From positions 24,240 to 88,239 of the IMG/VR virus record IMGVR_UViG_3300035670_000111: DNA of 64,000 nucleotides; one strand, given 5' to 3'. The stretch is from a virus. Made by a program: the position numbers and the translations under genes. Shown one piece after another: positions 19,711 to 62,968 of this stretch (the first letter of the stretch is position 1; every line of letters starts with the position of its first letter). The notes beneath the pieces are model-generated. The model was given only the letters and a program-made list of their open reading frames with translations. It did not search any database and was not told the origin of the DNA.

Positions 19711-21270
19711 TTATGCCGAAGCTGTTCCGGTTATCTGACCAAGCTTGATCACAATAAACTCAGCTGGATACTCAAGGGCCACGCCAACTTCAATGTTAAC
19801 ACGACCATTTTGGATATCAGACTGGCTTGTTGTGCTTGCATCTACTTTTACGTAGTAAGCCTTGTCTGGACTGGATCCACGCAATCCGCCTTGCTGCCAG
19901 TAGCCACGTAGGAACGAGCCAAGGGCAACACGTAATTGAGACCACAGACGTTCGCTGTTGTTCTCAAATATTGCGAATGCGCTTCTATCAGTCAATTCTT
20001 TCTTAATATAGGTAAGAGAACGACGTACGCTGATGTAGCGATCTCCTGGAGTATTGTTCAGGGTGCGAGCGCCCATTACAACAATTCCGTTTCCAGGAAC
20101 TTGGCGGATAGCGTTTACTGGAACTGCACCAGTATTTAGGTCATCCAACTCAACGTTGGTGAACTGACGCTCCGTTGCTACAGCTAGTGCTACGCGGTTT
20201 GTCAAACCTGCAGGGGCTTTGAAAACTCCGCGAGAAGCATCTGTAGCCAAGAACTGGCCCATCATTGCTGCTCCTGGAGCTTGAGCTCTTGTTGCTCCGC
20301 CAGATGCACGTAGAGTGTCTGGAATAAGCAACCATGGGAAGTACGCGGCAGCGCATCCTCCGTCTGAATCTGGTGCAGCAGCCTTAACCTCTGTAAAGAA
20401 TGTCTTAGCTGTTGCTACGGTTTCTCCGATAGGTGAATCAATAATTGCAAATGCGTCTCCGCGAAGCTCGCAATAGTTGATTAGATCCCCCTGGATATTT
20501 ATCGCAAGGGTTCTTTCTGTACTTGTTCCTGTTGGAGTGTAGATATATGCTGCAGCAGGAATGTTAAATAGAAGGGGATTCTGAATAGCGTCAAAAGTAG
20601 CTAGAGCTACAGAGTAATCAGTTCTGCTTGGAGCTGATCCATTTACGCCACCAGTTAGATCCTTTAGACCATCAATTTCTGGAAGATCGTCAGGAGAAAC
20701 AGAAGCAGAGTTTTGATCCGCTACTGTTACGTATGCTGAAGAAGAATTTATGACAGATACCACATAACGAGGATCTGTTGAGTCCATGCTTAGATCAGTA
20801 AATTGTTCAAGAAGATTTGAATTAGCTACAGAGCCAATTGGAGCTCCATAAACTAAAAGAGTGAATCTATTGCTAGTTCCTGCTTCTTGTACTTCTACTG
20901 CAAGGTCATTTCCCCATGCTCCTTGGTTAGCTGCTCGAACCAAGAGGGTGTTCAATGCTGAGTTTGAACGGTCTGTCAATACTACAGAGGCCTGCGCTGC
21001 TCCTGAGCCTAGAATACGTCGCACATAAAGCTGACGACCACCATTGGCAAAGAAGTTGTATGCTGCCCATGTAGTTGGGTATGCGTCTTCAAGACTTCCA
21101 AAAGTCTTGACAAATTGTGTCCAAGAAGTTACAAGAACTGGAGTTACTGATGGTCCCTTTGCAAGGGTACCCACCAAAGCTCCTGCTGCCGTGCCCACAT
21201 CTGCAAGCGCGACTTCTTGAGGAAGCTCAACTTCTTGAATAAAGACGCCTGGTCTACTATATGTAGCCAT
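19711..21270 (-). CDS. Tail sheath protein
   Basis: 519 residues. The N-terminus YSRPGVFIQEVE, the segment TAAGALVGTLAKGPSVTPVLV, and the C-terminal RYISVRRSLTYIKKELTDRS and EYPAEFIVIKLGQ regions are typical of contractile sheath subunits. The sheath shortens to drive the tube. Its presence settles the virion as a myovirus type. Confidence 0.96.
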   Translation of the reverse strand: MATYSRPGVFIQEVELPQEVALADVGTAAGALVGTLAKGPSVTPVLVTSWTQFVKTFGSLEDAYPTTWAAYNFFANGGRQLYVRRILGSGAAQASVVLTDRSNSALNTLLVRAANQGAWGNDLAVEVQEAGTSNRFTLLVYGAPIGSVANSNLLEQFTDLSMDSTDPRYVVSVINSSSAYVTVADQNSASVSPDDLPEIDGLKDLTGGVNGSAPSRTDYSVALATFDAIQNPLLFNIPAAAYIYTPTGTSTERTLAINIQGDLINYCELRGDAFAIIDSPIGETVATAKTFFTEVKAAAPDSDGGCAAAYFPWLLIPDTLRASGGATRAQAPGAAMMGQFLATDASRGVFKAPAGLTNRVALAVATERQFTNVELDDLNTGAVPVNAIRQVPGNGIVVMGARTLNNTPGDRYISVRRSLTYIKKELTDRSAFAIFENNSERLWSQLRVALGSFLRGYWQQGGLRGSSPDKAYYVKVDASTTSQSDIQNGRVNIEVGVALEYPAEFIVIKLGQITGTASA

Positions 21271-44487: not shown

Positions 44488-45564
44488 CTAGTTGGTTTCT
44501 GCCAACACTACAGACTGGTCAGTAATTAGACCAAGACCGTAGATAGCATACCAAGCAAGCGCATGCTCACGACCGAAGTCAAGAATACCGCCATCGCGGA
44601 GCTCAACTGGTAGAGAGATTGCGTGACCAAATGCATTGTCACCAATAAAGATAGCTGTGTAGCGATCCTTGTTACCGTTACCGGTCTTTGTTACTGGAGT
44701 GGTGTAACCGCCACCAGTTGGGTAGACAATTGAGCCAGGAGCAACAGCGGTATCGGTGGTGTAACCAGAACCTGCACCGTTTGTTACTTTCTGGATTTGG
44801 GTTGTCTCAATGAATACTGTGTCGTACAAACGACCGATTTCACCGAGCATGAAGTTACCTGGAGCAGCGTACTTAGTTACTTCGATGAACTCTGGGAGGT
44901 CACGAAGACGACGGCTCTGGTGTGGGTGAACGAATGCCACATAGGTTTCACCCAACCGTGGAATGTTCTTGGTTGCTAGAGTCTCGACAGCGTCCTTAAC
45001 AGTGTGAGTTGTAAGGTGGAAGTTACCAGTCAAGGAAGCACGTGATGTTCCAACGGTTCCTGAGGTATACCAGTCGTTAACAGCAACGTTAGCAGAACGA
45101 TCATAACCGTAAATAACGGAAGATGCTGCCATGAGTGTGTCACGAGCTTGTCCATCGAGATAGAGGGCCATGTTACGGCCAAGTAGACGTGAGGCTGATG
45201 CCATTACGTCATCGAATGATGCGTTCAATAGAAGCTCAGAAACTGCAATAGCATAACCATGCTCAGCAACAGTAATTGAGAATTGCTGTGCGGTTAGTGC
45301 CTTAGTTTCCATGCGAACACCTTCGACAAGTGCTGATGCAAAGCCGAGGTTGTTGTAACGCATAAAGTTGATCTGAAGACCTGGTGCAACGCCAAGCTCT
45401 GTCTTCTTAACAGCGAACTGTTCGAAGCGAAGAATTGGCATCGACTGGAAAAGAATTTCCTTTGACCAGATCGTCTGGATTGCTTGCGTAAGCTGGCTAT
45501 TTGCGCCAGAGTACGCTGTAGGTGCGGCAGCTAAATTGCCGGTACCTGTGAGGGCTGATGCCAT
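44488..45564 (-). CDS. Major capsid protein (HK97 fold)
   Basis: 358 residues, with an N-terminal arm, then WSKEILFQSMPILRFEQFAV, the E-loop-like stretch and FVHPHQSRRLRDLPEFIEV, all typical of HK97-fold capsid proteins of large actinophages. A scaffold gene and portal gene precede it in the expected order. It has its own palindromic promoter-like element upstream, an AAGGAG ribosome site, and a hairpin right after the stop, consistent with high expression. Confidence 0.92.
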   Translation of the reverse strand: MASALTGTGNLAAAPTAYSGANSQLTQAIQTIWSKEILFQSMPILRFEQFAVKKTELGVAPGLQINFMRYNNLGFASALVEGVRMETKALTAQQFSITVAEHGYAIAVSELLLNASFDDVMASASRLLGRNMALYLDGQARDTLMAASSVIYGYDRSANVAVNDWYTSGTVGTSRASLTGNFHLTTHTVKDAVETLATKNIPRLGETYVAFVHPHQSRRLRDLPEFIEVTKYAAPGNFMLGEIGRLYDTVFIETTQIQKVTNGAGSGYTTDTAVAPGSIVYPTGGGYTTPVTKTGNGNKDRYTAIFIGDNAFGHAISLPVELRDGGILDFGREHALAWYAIYGLGLITDQSVVLAETN

Positions 45565-45594
45565 GTCGGTCTTACTCCTTAGTGTTTAGTTTAA

Positions 45595-45608
45595 TAAGTT
45601 ATAACTTA
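45595..45608 (-). promoter_or_regulatory. 14-bp palindrome with -10-like TATAAC before capsid gene
   Basis: TAAGTTATAACTTA is a perfect palindrome in the 45-base gap between scaffold and capsid genes. Read on the minus strand it offers TATAAC as a -10 box some 35 bases before the capsid ATG. No good -35 is visible. A capsid-specific promoter or regulator site is inferred. Confidence 0.45.
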
Positions 45609-45609
45609 A

Positions 45610-46383
45610 CTACCCGAAGATTCCCTTGCCACGATCAGCTGCTACTGTTCCTAGCAACTTCCCGCGGTATTTTGCGTACTCGGTAACCGACATAGCGGCT
45701 ATTTGCTCCGCTGTAAACTGCTGTTGGTCCGAATTTGTGTCCAGGGGTCCGGAAGGTGGCGCGGTTACCCGGCTACCTGTCATTTCACGACGAGCAGACT
45801 GCATAGCCTGCTGTGCTGAGTCAAGGATACGCGATGAGCGCTCCTTTAATCCTGCGATACTTTGCTCTATTTCTTCCTTGGTATTACCAGTGATTAGGTC
45901 GAGCAACTCGGGGATGATGTTTTCACGCTCCTCATTTAGGCGACCTGAGCGATACTCGCTTAATTCAGCGAATTGGCGCTCGCGCTCTAGGAGGGTGAAT
46001 GCTTTTTCCCTCTCGAGTCTTTCTGACTCAAGTTTTTCCGCCCATTCTTTTTCTTTTGTTTCCAAAAGCTGACGGACGTCCATCTCAGCTTCGGCCTTCT
46101 TACGGGCCTCAGCTTCTTGTTCTGCACGAAGCCTCTCAGCTTCTGCGAGACGTTCTTCGCGCTCCTTCTTCAGAACGGCAAGCTCTTCCTTTAGAGAATC
46201 TATTTGTGGGTAGAGCTTAGATTTCTCTTGCTCACGCACTTTCTTTAGATCCTCCTCAGTATAAGACTTGTTAGGAGTCTGCGACTGGACGGGTGCTACG
46301 AGTGTATCTGTCGTTGCCGGAACATCCTGGAAAAACGCTTCCTGGGCTTCAGGCGAATCAACAATATTAGTTGTTTCTGACAT
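45610..46383 (-). CDS. Capsid scaffolding protein
   Basis: 257 residues, highly charged and helical, with a long Glu/Lys/Arg coiled coil (residues about 45-125) and a short C-terminal globular end (YAKYRGKLLGTVAADRGKG) that resembles the capsid-binding tail of other scaffold proteins. Lies directly before the capsid gene. Shape, charge and position all fit a scaffold that is removed during head maturation. Confidence 0.85.
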   Translation of the reverse strand: MSETTNIVDSPEAQEAFFQDVPATTDTLVAPVQSQTPNKSYTEEDLKKVREQEKSKLYPQIDSLKEELAVLKKEREERLAEAERLRAEQEAEARKKAEAEMDVRQLLETKEKEWAEKLESERLEREKAFTLLERERQFAELSEYRSGRLNEERENIIPELLDLITGNTKEEIEQSIAGLKERSSRILDSAQQAMQSARREMTGSRVTAPPSGPLDTNSDQQQFTAEQIAAMSVTEYAKYRGKLLGTVAADRGKGIFG

Positions 46384-46479
46384 ATATATTCCTTAGGTTT
46401 TGGAGGTCGTTGTCCGAATTAATGCCACGATGACCTGCGGATTTATTTGGGAATAGGCTTGCAAAGAAATGGTTTTTTG

Positions 46480-46490
46480 TCAGCCTAAAC
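46480..46490 (-). promoter_or_regulatory. Shared 11-mer GTTTAGGCTGA before scaffold gene
   Basis: This 11-base sequence follows the portal stop codon at once and recurs exactly at 49010-49020, after the terminase stop. Both copies precede head genes by 60-100 bases. It may mark a phage promoter or processing site; a clear -35/-10 pair is not visible here. Confidence 0.35.
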
Positions 46491-48203
46491 TTAGTTATCC
46501 CCGTATTTAGAGTCTTCTGGTGAAGTACCTCTACGTTGAGGGATTTTGGTTCCATATGCTTTGGTAACCAACTCTGTGGACATTTGCTCGAGTGTCTGTG
46601 CCTCGAACGGAGTTACGACGCCAGGTTGTCCTGAAGGACCTGGGCCGACACCAGCGCCAACATCATTTCCAGGAGCGGGTTCCATGCCCTGGTTTTCTGG
46701 TAGCAAGCCGGTTAGGGAAGCAATAGCTGAGTTAATTTGGGACCTAATTAGGTTAAGAGCCCCATCTGCCTTGGCATCTTCAATGAGCTCTGTACGAATT
46801 TCGTCGAGCTTCTCGTCTGGGAATTCTTCGCCAAGAGTGCGAAGGGCGCCTTTACGGCTTTCAAGATTCATTCCCATCTTAGTTTGGATCTCGTTCAACA
46901 CAATCAATTTATCAAGAGGCAACGGTTGTGGGAAATGTACGGTTGTCTCGTAAGTTAGAGGGTCATTAATGTCTAGAACTGGACGTTGATCTGGCTTTAT
47001 TGGTCCATTAAATTCTGGATTGTATATAAATAGTTCAGGCTCTTTTACAGCAAGAGTTAGGAGAACTAGTTCATTGATGCGTGTAATTCCTTGGCTGTAC
47101 TGCGTAATCTTTTGATTGTATCTGTTCATCAAAGGCTGGTATTGAATAGCCAATGCAACACCAGAGGTATTTGAGATCGGTTGAACTTCACCCAACGCTG
47201 ACTGAGGAACTCCGATCATTTCGTGCATTGCACGTTTAATAATTTCTAGGTATTGAATTGCTCCCTGCAGACCTTGTCCGCCACCTTCTAGATTAAATAC
47301 TTGGGCATCCTTAGGGAGACCTCCCCAGACCTTTTTAGGTCCCTTCTCAAGGGAAGATGCCTTAGCTCCAGTGATAACTGTTACAGGAGCAGCGTGGTAA
47401 TTAACAATGTCTGCTACGTCTGTAGCAATTTCGTTATAGCTTCTGTTAAGAACAATTATGTCGTGGCAATCAGATAATCCCCATGGAGATCCGGATACTC
47501 GAACATTTGGTATGTGAACAATAGGAACTTTACCTATTGGGTTAGGACGTGAATCAATCAACTCATCGTTGATGTATTCTTCAATTCTGTCGTCAGTAAG
47601 AATTTCTGTATATGTATAAACTTGACGTGTACCTTCTAAAGATGTGCCCCAGAAACGATACTTTAATTTAAATCTAATCAATCGATCACGATCATGCGGG
47701 TGAAACTCTGGAAAACAGAACGAGGAGTTAAGCGGGAGTATTCTTACTCTACCTGGATTGCGTCTTCCTACGCTATCTTCAAATGCTTCTTCATATGCGA
47801 CCTTAACAAAACAATCGCCTGATACCCCGCCTTGCTGACCCATTTCCCACATAACGCCGTGCTTATTGTTATCTACTTCCCATACACGCTGTAGGATGTC
47901 TGGAACTATTGCTTCTGTTGGATAAGGGCTACGGAAGATAGCTCCACGTCCAAAACTAAAATTAATTATGTAATCTGTAAACGCCCTGTAGTAGTTGTAT
48001 ACCATTTGAGATTCGCCGATTTCTCTGCGATATGCCCAATGATGTCCTAGATACATCGCCCAGTTAAGCGAGTAACGATTTAAGCGAGGACCATGTACTT
48101 CAAATTCTTCGTCTGCAAGTTCTACAAGTCCAAGAGGAGAAATTGATATTGTTAAGTCAGAGGAGGCGGCCCTATACGACGGAGGACTAAAATCAATACT
48201 CAT
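46491..48203 (-). CDS. Portal protein
   Basis: 570 residues of portal type, with LNWAMYLGHHWAYRREIGES near the start, a wing and crown region (YNEIATDVADIVNYHA), and the stem-like segment AMHEMIGVPQSALGEVQPIS followed by GVALAIQYQPL, which is diagnostic of SPP1-type portals. The C-terminus is Pro/Gly-rich. It sits between the terminase and scaffold genes. Dodecamers form the DNA gate. Confidence 0.93.
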   Translation of the reverse strand: MSIDFSPPSYRAASSDLTISISPLGLVELADEEFEVHGPRLNRYSLNWAMYLGHHWAYRREIGESQMVYNYYRAFTDYIINFSFGRGAIFRSPYPTEAIVPDILQRVWEVDNNKHGVMWEMGQQGGVSGDCFVKVAYEEAFEDSVGRRNPGRVRILPLNSSFCFPEFHPHDRDRLIRFKLKYRFWGTSLEGTRQVYTYTEILTDDRIEEYINDELIDSRPNPIGKVPIVHIPNVRVSGSPWGLSDCHDIIVLNRSYNEIATDVADIVNYHAAPVTVITGAKASSLEKGPKKVWGGLPKDAQVFNLEGGGQGLQGAIQYLEIIKRAMHEMIGVPQSALGEVQPISNTSGVALAIQYQPLMNRYNQKITQYSQGITRINELVLLTLAVKEPELFIYNPEFNGPIKPDQRPVLDINDPLTYETTVHFPQPLPLDKLIVLNEIQTKMGMNLESRKGALRTLGEEFPDEKLDEIRTELIEDAKADGALNLIRSQINSAIASLTGLLPENQGMEPAPGNDVGAGVGPGPSGQPGVVTPFEAQTLEQMSTELVTKAYGTKIPQRRGTSPEDSKYGDN

Positions 48204-54277: not shown

Positions 54278-54440
54278 CCTTTGGGTTCCTCAGGGGGTAA
54301 GTTACTGCCCAAGCAATAAATGTTCCAACAATTGCCCATCCTACAACAGTCTTAGCTGACCCGTCTAGGACAACCCAAGCAATAAACATACCTAGAACAG
54401 TCCAAAGCTGCTCTGCCATGTCTTTTAATAGCTTTACCAT
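54267..54440 (-). CDS. Two-helix membrane protein, 57 aa
   Basis: Helices at residues 13-26 ([13 protein letters not shown]) and 31-49 ([20 protein letters not shown]) with a charged end (RNPKDEE). Compact hairpin topology suggests a holin or antiholin. It starts inside the end of the secreted Pro-rich gene, which implies coupled expression. A pair of holin-like proteins in one lysis region would allow fine timing. Confidence 0.75.
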
Positions 54441-56791
54441 TTTCCTCGTCTCCTAACGATTTTGTCTCCGCCCTTTGCGGTTCCACCTGAAGGGGCCCCA
54501 CCACCGGTATTGGTAGTGGTAGCCGCCGCTGCCATAGTTGCCGCATTTACGGCAGCTTGACCAGCGATGACGGCAGCAACGATTATTTTTTCGGATTCTT
54601 CACGTTCTTCAGGTGACATATCGGCACCTATGCTTCCTAGAGCCATTAGTACCTGTCCAGGATCTTCAAATAGTGCGCCAAGTAATTCTGTGGGGTTCTC
54701 AAGAAGAACCAGAGCCGCAGCTACTTCTGCGGTAATTATGACAGCATTGCCTTCCTCATCAGTTCTAATCTCAACCGGTGTTTGTGGCGGCAAGTCTTCA
54801 TAGCTGACGCCGGCCTCTACAAGCTGCTCTACAGTTATAGGCTCGTCTTGTTCTAATAACTCTTCTATAGGTGTATTATTAGAGGATGATTCTATGGACT
54901 GATTTTCTTGCTCTATCTCTTGTGACGGCTGTTGTGGTTCTGGTTCCTCAACTACGGTCTCTTCCTCCGTCTGCTCCTGCTGTTCTTCGGATTCCGATGA
55001 AGGCTCTTCCGTATCTACTGTTTCTTCTGTGGGTGTCTGCGGTTCTTCTGTGGAAGGCTCAGTAGATGAATCAGTCTCAGTTGGTATATTCTCAGTATCA
55101 TTATCACCATCATCAGGCGTATCAATATCTTCTTCGAGTTCAGGTTCATCTACAGGCTGCTCAGGCTGGGGCTCTTCTGGAGTTTGAGGAGATTCCTGAG
55201 TGGCTTCTTCGTTTTCGGAAGGAGCTTCAGGTTGCTCTGGAGACGGTTCCGGAGTTGGTTCTGGCAGAGGTTCGACCGGAGGTTCAACAGGCTGTTCAGG
55301 AGTTATTGGAGGATCCTCAGACTCAGGTTCTGATGGAGCGTCTGGCTGAGGCGGAATTACAGGATCCTGGGGTTGCTGAGGCTCGGGAGAGGTTGGCTCA
55401 GGCTGAGGCTCAGGTTGAGGTGTTGGAGCCGTGGGCTCAGGAACGGGAGTAGGTTCAGGTGAAGGTTCGGGTGTGGGCTCTGGCTGCGGTTGCGGCTCTG
55501 GCTGCGGCTGTGGCTCTGGTTCAGGCTCTGGTGCGGGAGTTGGCTCAGGTTCTGGAGTCGGAGTGGGATTGGGCTGAGAATCAGGAGAAGGAGTAGGTTC
55601 AGGTGAAGGAGTTGGTTCTGGCTGTGGGGTTGGCTCAGGCTCTGGGGTGGGCTCAGGAGTTGGTTCTGGCTCAGGCTCCGGTGTTGGCTCTGGCTCAGGT
55701 GTCGGCTCTGGTGTCGGCTCTGGTGTTGGTTCTGGCTGGGGCTCTGGCTCGGGCTCTACTGGGGTAGGAGCAAGCTCAACTGCTTCTTCTATTTGCGTAA
55801 CACCAGCTTCTTCTAAAGTAACAACAGTTCCATCTTGTAATCTAGCGCCAGTGCGCTCGCCGCCATATAGCGGTCCATCTACTGTGTAGGTATAAGCAAC
55901 AGTCCCGTCAGTTTGAATCTGACCAGTGATAACAATCTGTGTAGTTTCTCCGGCCATCTGTCCAAACGGACGATAGACGCCATCTACTTGGAACCCACCT
56001 TCGCTTGTACGAATGATGAAATGAGTGTCTGGCATCTGTTGCGGAAGAACCCACCAGTCACGAGACTCAACAGAGATAGATGGAGTATTTGGATAAGTCC
56101 AATAAGTTCCGTCTGCTTGACCAAAGGTAATTACTGAGTTGGTTGTAGCATATACGTTCTCGTATGTAACTCCGTTAAAGACTACAGATGTCTCTAGAGG
56201 AATGCGATAAGATGTGTCATCTCCGCCAGGAGTTACTGTTTCAGTTACTACTGGCTCTGGTTCTGTAGGAGGAGTTGTAGATGCTTGACTTTCAGGGCTC
56301 GTGGATACCGTGGGCGTGGACTCTGTATTGTTTGTTGACTGGGATGATTCTGGGGAAGTTGTGGACGTCGGCTCCACTAAAGCGTCAGATTGAGTTTCTT
56401 CAGTCGTCTGGGATGGAGCGGGTTCTTCTGTTTGAAGATTTGTATCGGAAGGAGCAGGAGAAGGTTCAGTGGCTTCAGGCGAAGGTGAAGGCTCAGGAGT
56501 CGGACTTGGATCGGATGAATCAGAAGTTGGTTCAGGGCTCGGGGATGGAGGCTCCGCAGTGGAATATGTCGTACTGGAAGTTTGAGGGTCCGAAGTTGCA
56601 GAAGAGGGTTCTGGAGTTGGAACAGGAGTTGGAGTCGCTTCGGTCGAAGACTCTGTGGAAGGACTAGGCGTAGGAGTTGATTCTCCTTCTGCGCGAGCAG
56701 GAGCTATCGTTAACAGTACATATATTGTTATAAATCCAAGAACGAAATAAAGTTTTCCGGTTAGTGCTGCGAATAGACGCAGTAATTTCAT
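54434..56791 (-). CDS. Secreted Pro/Glu/Thr-rich protein in the lysis region
   Basis: 785 residues. N-terminal signal peptide ([21 protein letters not shown]), a Ser/Thr/Pro linker, then a beta domain of about 150 residues ([50 protein letters not shown]). Next come about 230 residues of Pro/Glu repeats (PTPEPEP), an acidic stretch, and a hydrophobic Ala-rich C-terminal domain ([36 protein letters not shown]). Could span the thick wall like a stalk and act in lysis or superinfection exclusion. Function is not known; the repeat and secretion signals are clear. Confidence 0.7.
55380..55770 (-). repeat. Pro-Glu codon repeat tract
   Basis: Dense repeats of GAGCC, GARCCW and GAGCCTGAGCC-type units (Pro-Glu-Pro-Thr) create a strongly biased tract of almost 400 bases. 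Slippage-prone; length may vary between isolates. Confidence 0.85.
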
Positions 56792-61393: not shown

Positions 61394-61576
61394 TCAAAAT
61401 AACGGGGTAGCTTTTGCTCCCTTTTGTTTTAACGCCGTAGCATGTTTATTGTAATGGTGCATACAGAAGAATAAAGTCCCAAACGGCATAGAACAGCGAA
61501 TCAGCGCCTTAGCGCTGCAGGAATCGCAGGTTTCAGGAAGCCGAGCCTCCGCCGTCTCCTCCTGCAGAAGATCCAT
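61394..61576 (-). CDS. Cys/His protein of the DUF7455 type, 60 aa
   Basis: ETCDSCSAKALIRCSMPFGT then LFFCMHHYNKH matches an actinobacterial zinc-binding family (DUF7455, from memory: CD-x-C-G-A...L-F-C-x-H-H). Its presence supports an actinobacterial host. The longer reading overlaps another gene in a different frame; ATG at 61576 is used, though no strong ribosome site precedes it. Confidence 0.65.
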   Translation of the reverse strand: MDLLQEETAEARLPETCDSCSAKALIRCSMPFGTLFFCMHHYNKHATALKQKGAKATPLF

Positions 61577-61775
61577 CTGTGCCTGTGCCACTAGTGGAAT
61601 CCTTTCCAAAATCGTTTTGAGCGGTTTCATTTGCTCCTCCGGGACCACCGTAGGGAGCCATAAAATTAGTTCCACCATACCAAAGATAGTAATATGGCAA
61701 AGCAGGAAGGGAAACGCCCGCAGTTACATATTTTCTTTTCTTGGGCGATTTAAATTGATGGTTCTTTTTATGCAC
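61533..61775 (-). CDS. Gly-rich small protein, 80 aa
   Basis: Basic N-terminus, an aromatic patch (LPALPYYYLWYGGTNFMAPY) and a Gly/Ser/Asp-rich tail (TSGTGTDGSSAGGDGGGS). Partly overlaps the DUF7455-type gene in another frame. No family. Could be a virion or membrane-associated peptide. Confidence 0.5.
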   Translation of the reverse strand: MHKKNHQFKSPKKRKYVTAGVSLPALPYYYLWYGGTNFMAPYGGPGGANETAQNDFGKDSTSGTGTDGSSAGGDGGGSAS

Positions 61776-61790
61776 AGATGGAGTATAGAG

Positions 61791-62357
61791 CTATCGTCTT
61801 TGTATGAAAGTGCGAACAGTCCCACCTGAATATACATCGTGCTTCTTAGCAATCTCGATAGACTTCCTAACCACTTTTTCGGCGGACTTAGGGTCAGTAC
61901 ATTTGTTGTAGTTTAAAGCCTCAAGTGCACCTAGAGCGTAATCTCCTCCAGAGCCGGCTACATAAAAGCCTCTAGCATCTCTATCCCAGGAGTAGTCTTC
62001 AAAGACGATGTACATAACACCGTGTACAGCAATGATGAATTCTGAGTCGTGAGAGGCGAACTCGCCTTCTTCTTTCATGTCATAGCCTGCATCCATGAAT
62101 GTAAGACGCATTTGCGGGATGAATTGAACGCTCATCCATTCATCTAAGTTTTGATTAACGCGGGGTTTTGCTGGCTTCCAACCATAATGCATTAAGTTAG
62201 ATCCGCGTCCTGCACCAGCACCAGCAATAAGAATGCCGTTGTTCTCAACAATTTTTGGGGTAGCGGTATCTAATAGTCGTCCGCTATCAAGTGATGCTCT
62301 GGATTCAGATCCGAGAACACACCATCCGTCGCCTTGCACACCTACTAACGTCGTCAT
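61791..62357 (-). CDS. Proteasome beta-subunit-like Ntn hydrolase
   Basis: 188 residues with the beta-subunit fold pattern. After removal of Met1, Thr2 becomes the N-terminal nucleophile (TTLVGVQGDGW). Glu18 (GSESRAS), Lys35 (TPKIVENNG), Ser136 (FYVAGSGGDYALGALEA), Asp174 and Ser177 (KHDVYSGG) fall where proteasome beta subunits carry their catalytic set Thr1, Glu/Asp17, Lys33, Ser129, Asp166, Ser169. Mature-type protein with no propeptide. Own promoter with a perfect TATAAT. It may degrade or process proteins during infection; substrate and partner ATPase unknown. Confidence 0.88.
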   Translation of the reverse strand: MTTLVGVQGDGWCVLGSESRASLDSGRLLDTATPKIVENNGILIAGAGAGRGSNLMHYGWKPAKPRVNQNLDEWMSVQFIPQMRLTFMDAGYDMKEEGEFASHDSEFIIAVHGVMYIVFEDYSWDRDARGFYVAGSGGDYALGALEALNYNKCTDPKSAEKVVRKSIEIAKKHDVYSGGTVRTFIQRR

Positions 62358-62365
62358 CTACAGCC

Positions 62366-62422
62366 CTTTCGTCTTTGGCTATTATAGATGCCCGTCGCGT
62401 ATGTTGACCCAAGAGACGAAAG
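62366..62422 (-). promoter_or_regulatory. Promoter with flanking inverted repeat before Ntn hydrolase gene
   Basis: Minus strand TATAAT at 62386-62381 lies 24 bases before the ATG. Arms CTTTCGTCTTTGG (62366-62378) and CCAAGAGACGAAAG (62409-62422) form an imperfect inverted repeat around it. A -35 is not convincing. The palindrome suggests an operator, or a hairpin in a longer transcript from upstream. Confidence 0.6.
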
Positions 62423-62518: not shown

Positions 62519-62968
62519 CTACGCTATTTCGATAACCTTAGGCTTATGTTCCTCAGGGATGCGGCGCTCCAGGTCAATGAAGAGGATGCCGTCGACGAAG
62601 GAGGCTTTAGCGACCTCCACATAGTCAGCCAGGACGAATTCGCTCTTGAAGTCTCTCATGCCGATCCCGCGATGGACGAACTCGTCATCACGCTTCTCAG
62701 CCTTAGATCCCTCAATGGTTAGGACGTTATCCTTTAGCTGGATAGCGATCTCCTTCTTAGTGAAGCCGGCCACAGCCATCTCCACCGTATAGGTGTCCTC
62801 ACCGTGCTTAACGATGTTGTATGGAGGATATGAAGACCCCCGACCCATAGATTCGCTCATACGAGCTAGGGTGTCGATTTGTCTCTCAAAGCCGACCATC
62901 CATGGCCAAGCAGTGAATGGTACGCAAGAATTTGCAGATTTGAATGAAGTGTTGAATGTAGGTATCAC
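62519..62968 (-). CDS. Small heat shock protein (Hsp20/alpha-crystallin)
   Basis: 149 residues. The alpha-crystallin domain spans residues about 45-140: YNIVKHGEDTYTVEMAVAGF, VLTIEGSKA, GMRDFKSEFVLAD. It ends with an I-x-I-type motif (VIEIA). GTG start five bases after AAGGAG. Prevents aggregation of unfolded proteins. Phage Hsp20 genes are known mainly from marine cyanophages. Neighbour to the Ntn hydrolase, so it may act in a common protein-handling unit. More GC-rich than most minus-strand genes. Confidence 0.93.
   Translation of the reverse strand: MIPTFNTSFKSANSCVPFTAWPWMVGFERQIDTLARMSESMGRGSSYPPYNIVKHGEDTYTVEMAVAGFTKKEIAIQLKDNVLTIEGSKAEKRDDEFVHRGIGMRDFKSEFVLADYVEVAKASFVDGILFIDLERRIPEEHKPKVIEIA

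Follow-up and report, generated by a model that had tools for sequence, protein, structure and literature searches.

The closest described relatives of the protein analyzed here are the group I proteasome homologues, which comprise HslV, BPH, AAH, CPH and PPH (Fuchs, Alva and Lupas 2021, PMC8665760). BPH forms an unfoldase-free double ring in which Thr-1 reacts with epoxomicin, and it is inert toward standard peptides and casein (PMC5777263). PPH and AAH occur in phages and lack unfoldase partners, and, as of 2021, AAH had not been found in any phage specific to actinobacteria (PMC8665760). Phage genes of the HslV, AAH and PPH types are thus known (PMC8665760, PHROG 1040, GenBank annotations), and phage encoding of such a protein is not, in itself, new. 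These phage homologues have been catalogued before but never explained, and our literature search found no functional study of PHROG 1040-type phage proteins.

We characterized a gene of this kind in a 64,000-nt stretch of viral DNA (hereafter, the window), which corresponds to positions 24240-88239 of an 88,239-bp IMG/VR virus record. The gene encodes a group I proteasome homologue of the HslV/BPH type, closer to BPH and HslV than to 20S beta subunits. BPH (PDB 5OVS, 5OVT, 5OVU; PMC5777263) is the best match both by fold and by profile, with active-site positions common to the two proteins, and both are compact subunits without C-terminal additions that lack a propeptide and a known unfoldase, but their identity is about 20%, BPH is the product of a bacterial gene, and position 17 is Asp in BPH and Glu here. 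HslV (ClpQ) shares with the window protein the Thr1 protease type, the absence of an alpha subunit and the compact fold, but works with HslU (HslVU), whereas no HslU-type ATPase scored over the cut-off in any record tested here. With AAH and the other phage group I homologues (PMC8665760), the window protein has in common the fold family, a length of about 180 aa, the phage setting and the lack of an unfoldase. The phage proteins annotated as 'peptidase HslV family' or 'protease' (PHROG 1040) are direct homologues and represent the same kind of gene in actinophages; those of phages DSL-LC01, Pitbull, Hum25, Pumpernickel and WaterT and of Planktophila phages E7 and F5 are at most 36% identical to the window protein.

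Family assignment and predicted fold

The first-pass annotation of the window had proposed a proteasome-family Ntn hydrolase for this open reading frame, and both the gene and its broad family hold up. The sole Pfam match of the protein is PF00227 (Proteasome; 4.4e-9, 36.7 bits against a cut-off of 22.4), and the PHROGs match to phrog_1040 ('peptidase HslV family', 2e-21) covers residues 1-187, indicating membership over the whole protein. Identical copies of the gene are present in two further IMG/VR contigs (L002 and L003), the former with the same neighbors as well, and, together with the 429 relatives and the low dN/dS values described below, these matches attest to a real gene. The NCBIfam HslV models reached 26-27 bits against cut-offs of 137-158, and the archaeal beta subunit model arc_protsome_B reached 39 bits against 224, so that, with scores this far under the cut-offs, the protein is neither an archaeal beta subunit nor an HslV by that standard.

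The AlphaFold2 single-chain model, for which the input alignment consisted of 25 sequences (24 viral contigs and one Burkholderiales genome), has a pLDDT of 94 and a pTM of 0.89 and displays four core helices with no C-terminal additions. Foldseek comparison with the PDB placed BPH first (epoxomicin-bound; TM 0.78-0.80), followed by HslV (TM 0.62-0.75) and 20S beta subunits, with no other Ntn family among the best 50 matches, in keeping with the original identification; viral structure models resemble the model at TM 0.91-0.95. When the alignment profile was compared with solved structures, the values were 2.7e-27 for BPH, 4e-13 for HslV and 5e-8 or weaker for 20S beta subunits; the BPH score is perhaps somewhat raised, as one of the 25 alignment rows (L101) is BPH-like, and the Foldseek ranking agrees with it. 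The profile match and an Ntn fold with Thr/Ser1, Asp/Glu17 and Lys33 place the protein in the proteasome superfamily (PF00227, MEROPS T1). The narrower designation as a proteasome beta subunit does not stand, given that BPH and HslV surpass any 20S beta subunit by profile and BPH ranks first by fold.

Three more specific assignments were rejected. A 20S beta subunit is at odds with the far better BPH and HslV profiles, with the arc_protsome_B score and with the presence of a single PF00227 gene; HslV proper, with the NCBIfam scores and with the lack of an AAA_2 ATPase in the possibly incomplete record; and PPH, with the size and fold of the protein, PPH being about 140 residues long without the second helix and the window protein 188 aa long with H50-59 and H71-89.

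The same fold could also serve an Ntn hydrolase that is not a protease, or a connectase-like ligase or transpeptidase of high specificity that directs Thr1 chemistry at one target. One monomeric proteasome homologue, connectase, acts as a specific ligase (PMC8665760), and BPH itself shows no general protease activity. Since this ligase belongs to the superfamily, certain phage relatives might likewise differ in their chemistry. However, connectase is missing the first helix pair and carries an insertion between strands 3 and 4 (PMC8665760), whereas the window protein is predicted to have both helix pairs, the first formed by H50-59 and H71-89, and no strand 3-4 insertion, and we accordingly regard a function of this type as doubtful.

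In a maximum likelihood tree, the deep order of which is unsure because of long branches, the window protein groups with viral sequences and not with BPH, which sits on a long branch. Its nearest relatives in the tree are 57-59% identical. A separate branch (93/96; 99/96 without pT24) unites the bacterial and phage sequences that show the AAH pattern, the AAH reference having been chosen here by taxonomic pattern (Rhizobiales, Streptomyces, phages); relatives on plasmids of Rhizobium, Sinorhizobium and Streptomyces fit this pattern. The window protein lies outside the AAH-pattern branch, within an actinophage branch that is moderately supported (82/71), and its profile-profile probability against AAH and the other phage group I homologues is 99.9%.

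Active site, constraint and start signals

Profile alignment with BPH (5OVS) equates BPH Thr-1, Asp-17, Lys-37, Gly-50 and Ser-139 with T2, E18, K35, G48 and S136 of the window protein; the catalytic roles of these BPH residues, with Gly-50 in the oxyanion hole, have been described (PMC5777263). The complete catalytic set that had been read from the sequence alone, T2, E18, K35, S136, D174 and S177, is present exactly as listed, and, as had also been noted, there is no propeptide, Thr following directly after the initiator Met (Table 1). Across 51 distinct viral sequences, variation at these positions is only conservative. K35, G48 and D174 are invariant (51/51 each), position 2 is Thr in 50/51 and Ser in 1/51, position 136 is Ser in 48/51 and Thr in 3/51, and position 177 is divided between Ser (27/51) and Thr (24/51). 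Position 18 is Asp in 46 of the 51 sequences and Glu in five, the window protein among the latter, making Glu18 a minority residue of this viral lineage; the Thermoplasma 20S beta subunit naturally has Glu17 (sequence identical to the PDB chains). Pairs of relatives for which dN/dS was computable gave values of 0.02-0.11, with synonymous changes far outnumbering replacements. Taken together, the conserved active-site set and the low dN/dS point to a constrained and probably active threonine peptidase.

By inspection, a TATAAT motif at 62386-62381 starts 29 bases 5' of the protease ATG, and a Shine-Dalgarno-like AAAGGG is located at 62369-62364, 6 bases 5' of it. We grade these start signals as weak because a promoter scan using its own criteria did not list the TATAAT site.

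Table 1. Features of the protease gene, its neighbors and other genes of the window mentioned in the text (window coordinates).
Feature	Coordinates	Strand	Basis or remark
Proteasome-family (HslV/BPH-like) Ntn hydrolase gene	61791..62357	-	188-aa ORF, ATG at 62357 to stop at 61791; PF00227; PHROG_1040; predicted structure
Thr2 codon, predicted nucleophile (Thr1 after Met removal)	62352..62354	-	conservation; aligned to BPH Thr-1
Glu18 codon (proteasome position 17)	62304..62306	-	conservation; Glu17 natural in Thermoplasma 20S beta
Lys35 codon (proteasome Lys33, BPH Lys-37)	62253..62255	-	conservation; profile alignment
Gly48 codon (BPH Gly-50, oxyanion hole)	62214..62216	-	conservation; profile alignment
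Ser136 codon (BPH Ser-139)	61950..61952	-	conservation
Asp174 codon (proteasome Asp166)	61836..61838	-	conservation
Ser177 codon (proteasome Ser169)	61827..61829	-	conservation
Probable start signals of protease gene	62364..62386	-	by inspection of upstream letters; weak
HSP20 small heat-shock gene	62519-62968	-	PF00011 8e-19; phrog_432; directly upstream of protease gene
DUF7455 protein gene, downstream of protease gene	61394-61678	-	
Head module (portal, scaffold, capsid)	44488-48203	-	
785-aa protein gene	54434-56791	-	
Tail sheath protein gene	19711-21270	-	PF17482

Search for an alpha subunit and an unfoldase

A profile search of the whole 88,239-bp record, which may be incomplete, identified one PF00227 gene only and no alpha subunit. 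The same record, with the same possible incompleteness, contains no AAA_2 (Clp/HslU-type) unfoldase; all AAA matches in it are below the cut-off and are confined to two proteins, a helicase resembling DnaB and a protein resembling DnaC/IstB. In 11 related records of up to 160 kb, several of which are fragments, no AAA_2 match exceeded the cut-off. The lack of an alpha subunit and an unfoldase, originally remarked for the window, thus extends to the entire record.

Distribution and probable host

A scan with two short motifs detected relatives in at least 429 contigs of IMG/VR, from which the 80 best were retrieved for analysis. Applied to 84,980 bacterial and archaeal genomes, the same scan, which is limited to motifs of the window protein's lineage and silent on other lineages, returned two relatives, both from Burkholderiales, one of which looks like BPH itself. 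An alignment of all phage relatives was too divergent for scans of these collections, so four closer sequences were aligned for this purpose instead. Named phages that encode relatives include Actinomycetia phage DSL-LC01, Arthrobacter phages Pitbull and Hum25, and Microbacterium phages, namely, Pumpernickel and WaterT-like ones. Relatives are also present in the unannotated records OX376640 (LanE43-AprE7) and OX376641 (LanE43-AprF5), which by title correspond to Planktophila phages E7 and F5, both in cultivation (PMC10202952).

The window's record carries a WhiB gene, as do 9 of 11 related contigs, and the control was positive only in Corynebacterium. On account of these WhiB genes, the phage very probably infects an actinobacterium, as the first-pass annotation had supposed. 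The host probably belongs to the freshwater actinobacteria. Our literature search found no paper linking Nanopelagicales with a proteasome.

20S proteasomes are common in Actinobacteria, and, with WhiB marking an actinobacterial host, the phage subunit could conceivably insert into the host PrcA/PrcB 20S core as a poison or decoy, blocking or redirecting the core. In Rhodococcus, proteasome expression is raised during infection with phage WC1, which is compatible with such an interaction. However, the kin of the window protein, by profile and by fold, are the BPH and HslV homo-oligomers, not actinobacterial beta subunits, and a decoy would not need a full catalytic set under strong constraint; insertion into the host core therefore appears very unlikely. 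The earlier suggestion that the phage protein replaces or poisons the host proteasome is, more generally, not favored because of the HslV/BPH kinship and because the search of the possibly incomplete record yielded neither an alpha subunit nor an unfoldase of the Clp/HslU type. Another option considered at that stage, an HslV-like ring of the phage protein's own, is in keeping with its kinship with BPH and HslV.

Gene neighborhood and mobility

In the available stretches around the relatives of the protease gene, no nearby HSP20 gene was found except in copies of the window's own phage. A functional link between HSP20 and the protease was dropped, the pair being confined to copies of the same phage.

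In near relatives (57-59% identical; L023, L024, L026, L027, L052), the protease gene adjoins a block that ends with a queuine tRNA-ribosyltransferase-like gene and a ribonucleotide reductase gene. The same block, with the same gene order, is present without the protease gene in the window's record (L008 406-6189), where the protease gene is located at the opposite end; in L024, L026, L027 and L052, it resides inside the block. In L006 and L007, the protease gene lies within a block that is collinear with the genome of Planktophila phage E7, but E7 itself carries the gene by its probable portal gene. These different positions in otherwise collinear phages indicate that the gene moves while its surroundings stay. 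Directly upstream of the protease gene, 26 of 48 distinct loci have a metallophosphoesterase gene that nearly touches or overlaps its start, and these metallophosphoesterases come from two different families (L092:3840-4994, L053:3949-4998); the window does not have this arrangement. The queuine tRNA-ribosyltransferase (phrog_887, 7.9e-48; L026:6982-8442, L008:2481-3971) is a possible DNA- or tRNA-modification enzyme.

Strong constraint together with a shifting genome position is what might be seen with a counter-defense protease, a ring that would specifically remove a host anti-phage protein. In several phages, moreover, the gene lies among small accessory genes before the terminase, where host-interaction genes are often located. 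Nevertheless, no defense gene or partner was found, and the wide spread of the gene over unrelated phages and hosts points to a general role, which makes dedicated counter-defense unlikely.

Independence from the head module

A placement near structural genes recurs in this family: in 16 of 52 distinct loci, the protease gene immediately precedes the portal gene, after which come the genes for scaffold and major capsid protein, and, in Planktophila phage E7, an unannotated proteasome-like gene (OX376640.1:7500-8036; L109) comes directly after the probable portal gene. The window portal is about 61% identical to that of a lineage with the gene upstream of the portal. This arrangement would suit a prohead maturation protease that cuts the scaffold or capsid protein in head assembly. 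However, in the window, more than 11 kb separate the protease gene from the genes for terminase, portal and capsid, and related phages differ in where they carry it. Furthermore, five complete Streptomyces phages (LuckySocke, Alone3, pSt2308, BRock, GiJojo) possess the same portal-scaffold-capsid module, with capsid proteins 72-74% and portal proteins 57-61% identical to those of the window, but no proteasome-family gene by either the lineage profile or PF00227, searches in which the positive controls E7, WaterT and DSL-LC01 were found. Conversely, Microbacterium phages WaterT and Lifes carry this gene plus a separate annotated capsid maturation protease. Given the Streptomyces phages without the gene and the two Microbacterium phages with both, a role in capsid maturation is highly improbable. 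The protease gene is independent of the head module.

Proposed role in infection

On balance, and with moderate confidence, we favor a compact homo-oligomeric threonine peptidase of the BPH/HslV type that acts as a non-structural accessory enzyme in infection; its ring, catalysis, timing and substrates are what we infer. Removal of the initiator Met would expose Thr1, and copies of the one subunit would assemble into a barrel of one or two rings that encloses the Thr1/Glu17/Lys33 sites. Such a barrel, having neither a propeptide nor an alpha subunit nor a dedicated viral unfoldase, would be active on assembly. During infection, it might cut proteins that are already unfolded or specifically recognized, or else be fed by a host AAA+ unfoldase. 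Its accessory role could then lie in host takeover, in the turnover of damaged or early proteins, or in the removal of a host defense protein, and not in virion building.

A broader proposal, which we offer only tentatively, is that actinophages carry their own lineage of unfoldase-free, self-compartmentalizing threonine proteases, distinct from AAH, that could serve as a mobile host-takeover or counter-defense machine. If true, this would be a viral proteasome core operating without viral ATPase partners. To the existing catalogue of phage proteasome homologues, the present analysis adds the size of the actinophage lineage (at least 429 contigs), a catalytic set that is intact where examined, strong constraint, mobility and independence from the capsid module. 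The analysis updates the 2021 observation on AAH and actinobacteria-specific phages only if this lineage is counted with AAH (PMC8665760). The cultivated carriers, namely Planktophila phages E7 and F5, Arthrobacter phages Pitbull and Hum25, and Microbacterium phages WaterT, Lifes and Pumpernickel, make the role of the protease directly testable.

Other features of the phage

The similarity of the head module (Table 1) links the phage to a group of soil actinophages (BRock, GiJojo, Alone3, LuckySocke, pSt2308). The presence of a tail sheath protein makes a contractile tail probable. The 785-aa protein encoded elsewhere in the window has an N terminus that resembles a signal peptide and a long tract of repeats rich in Pro, Thr and Glu.
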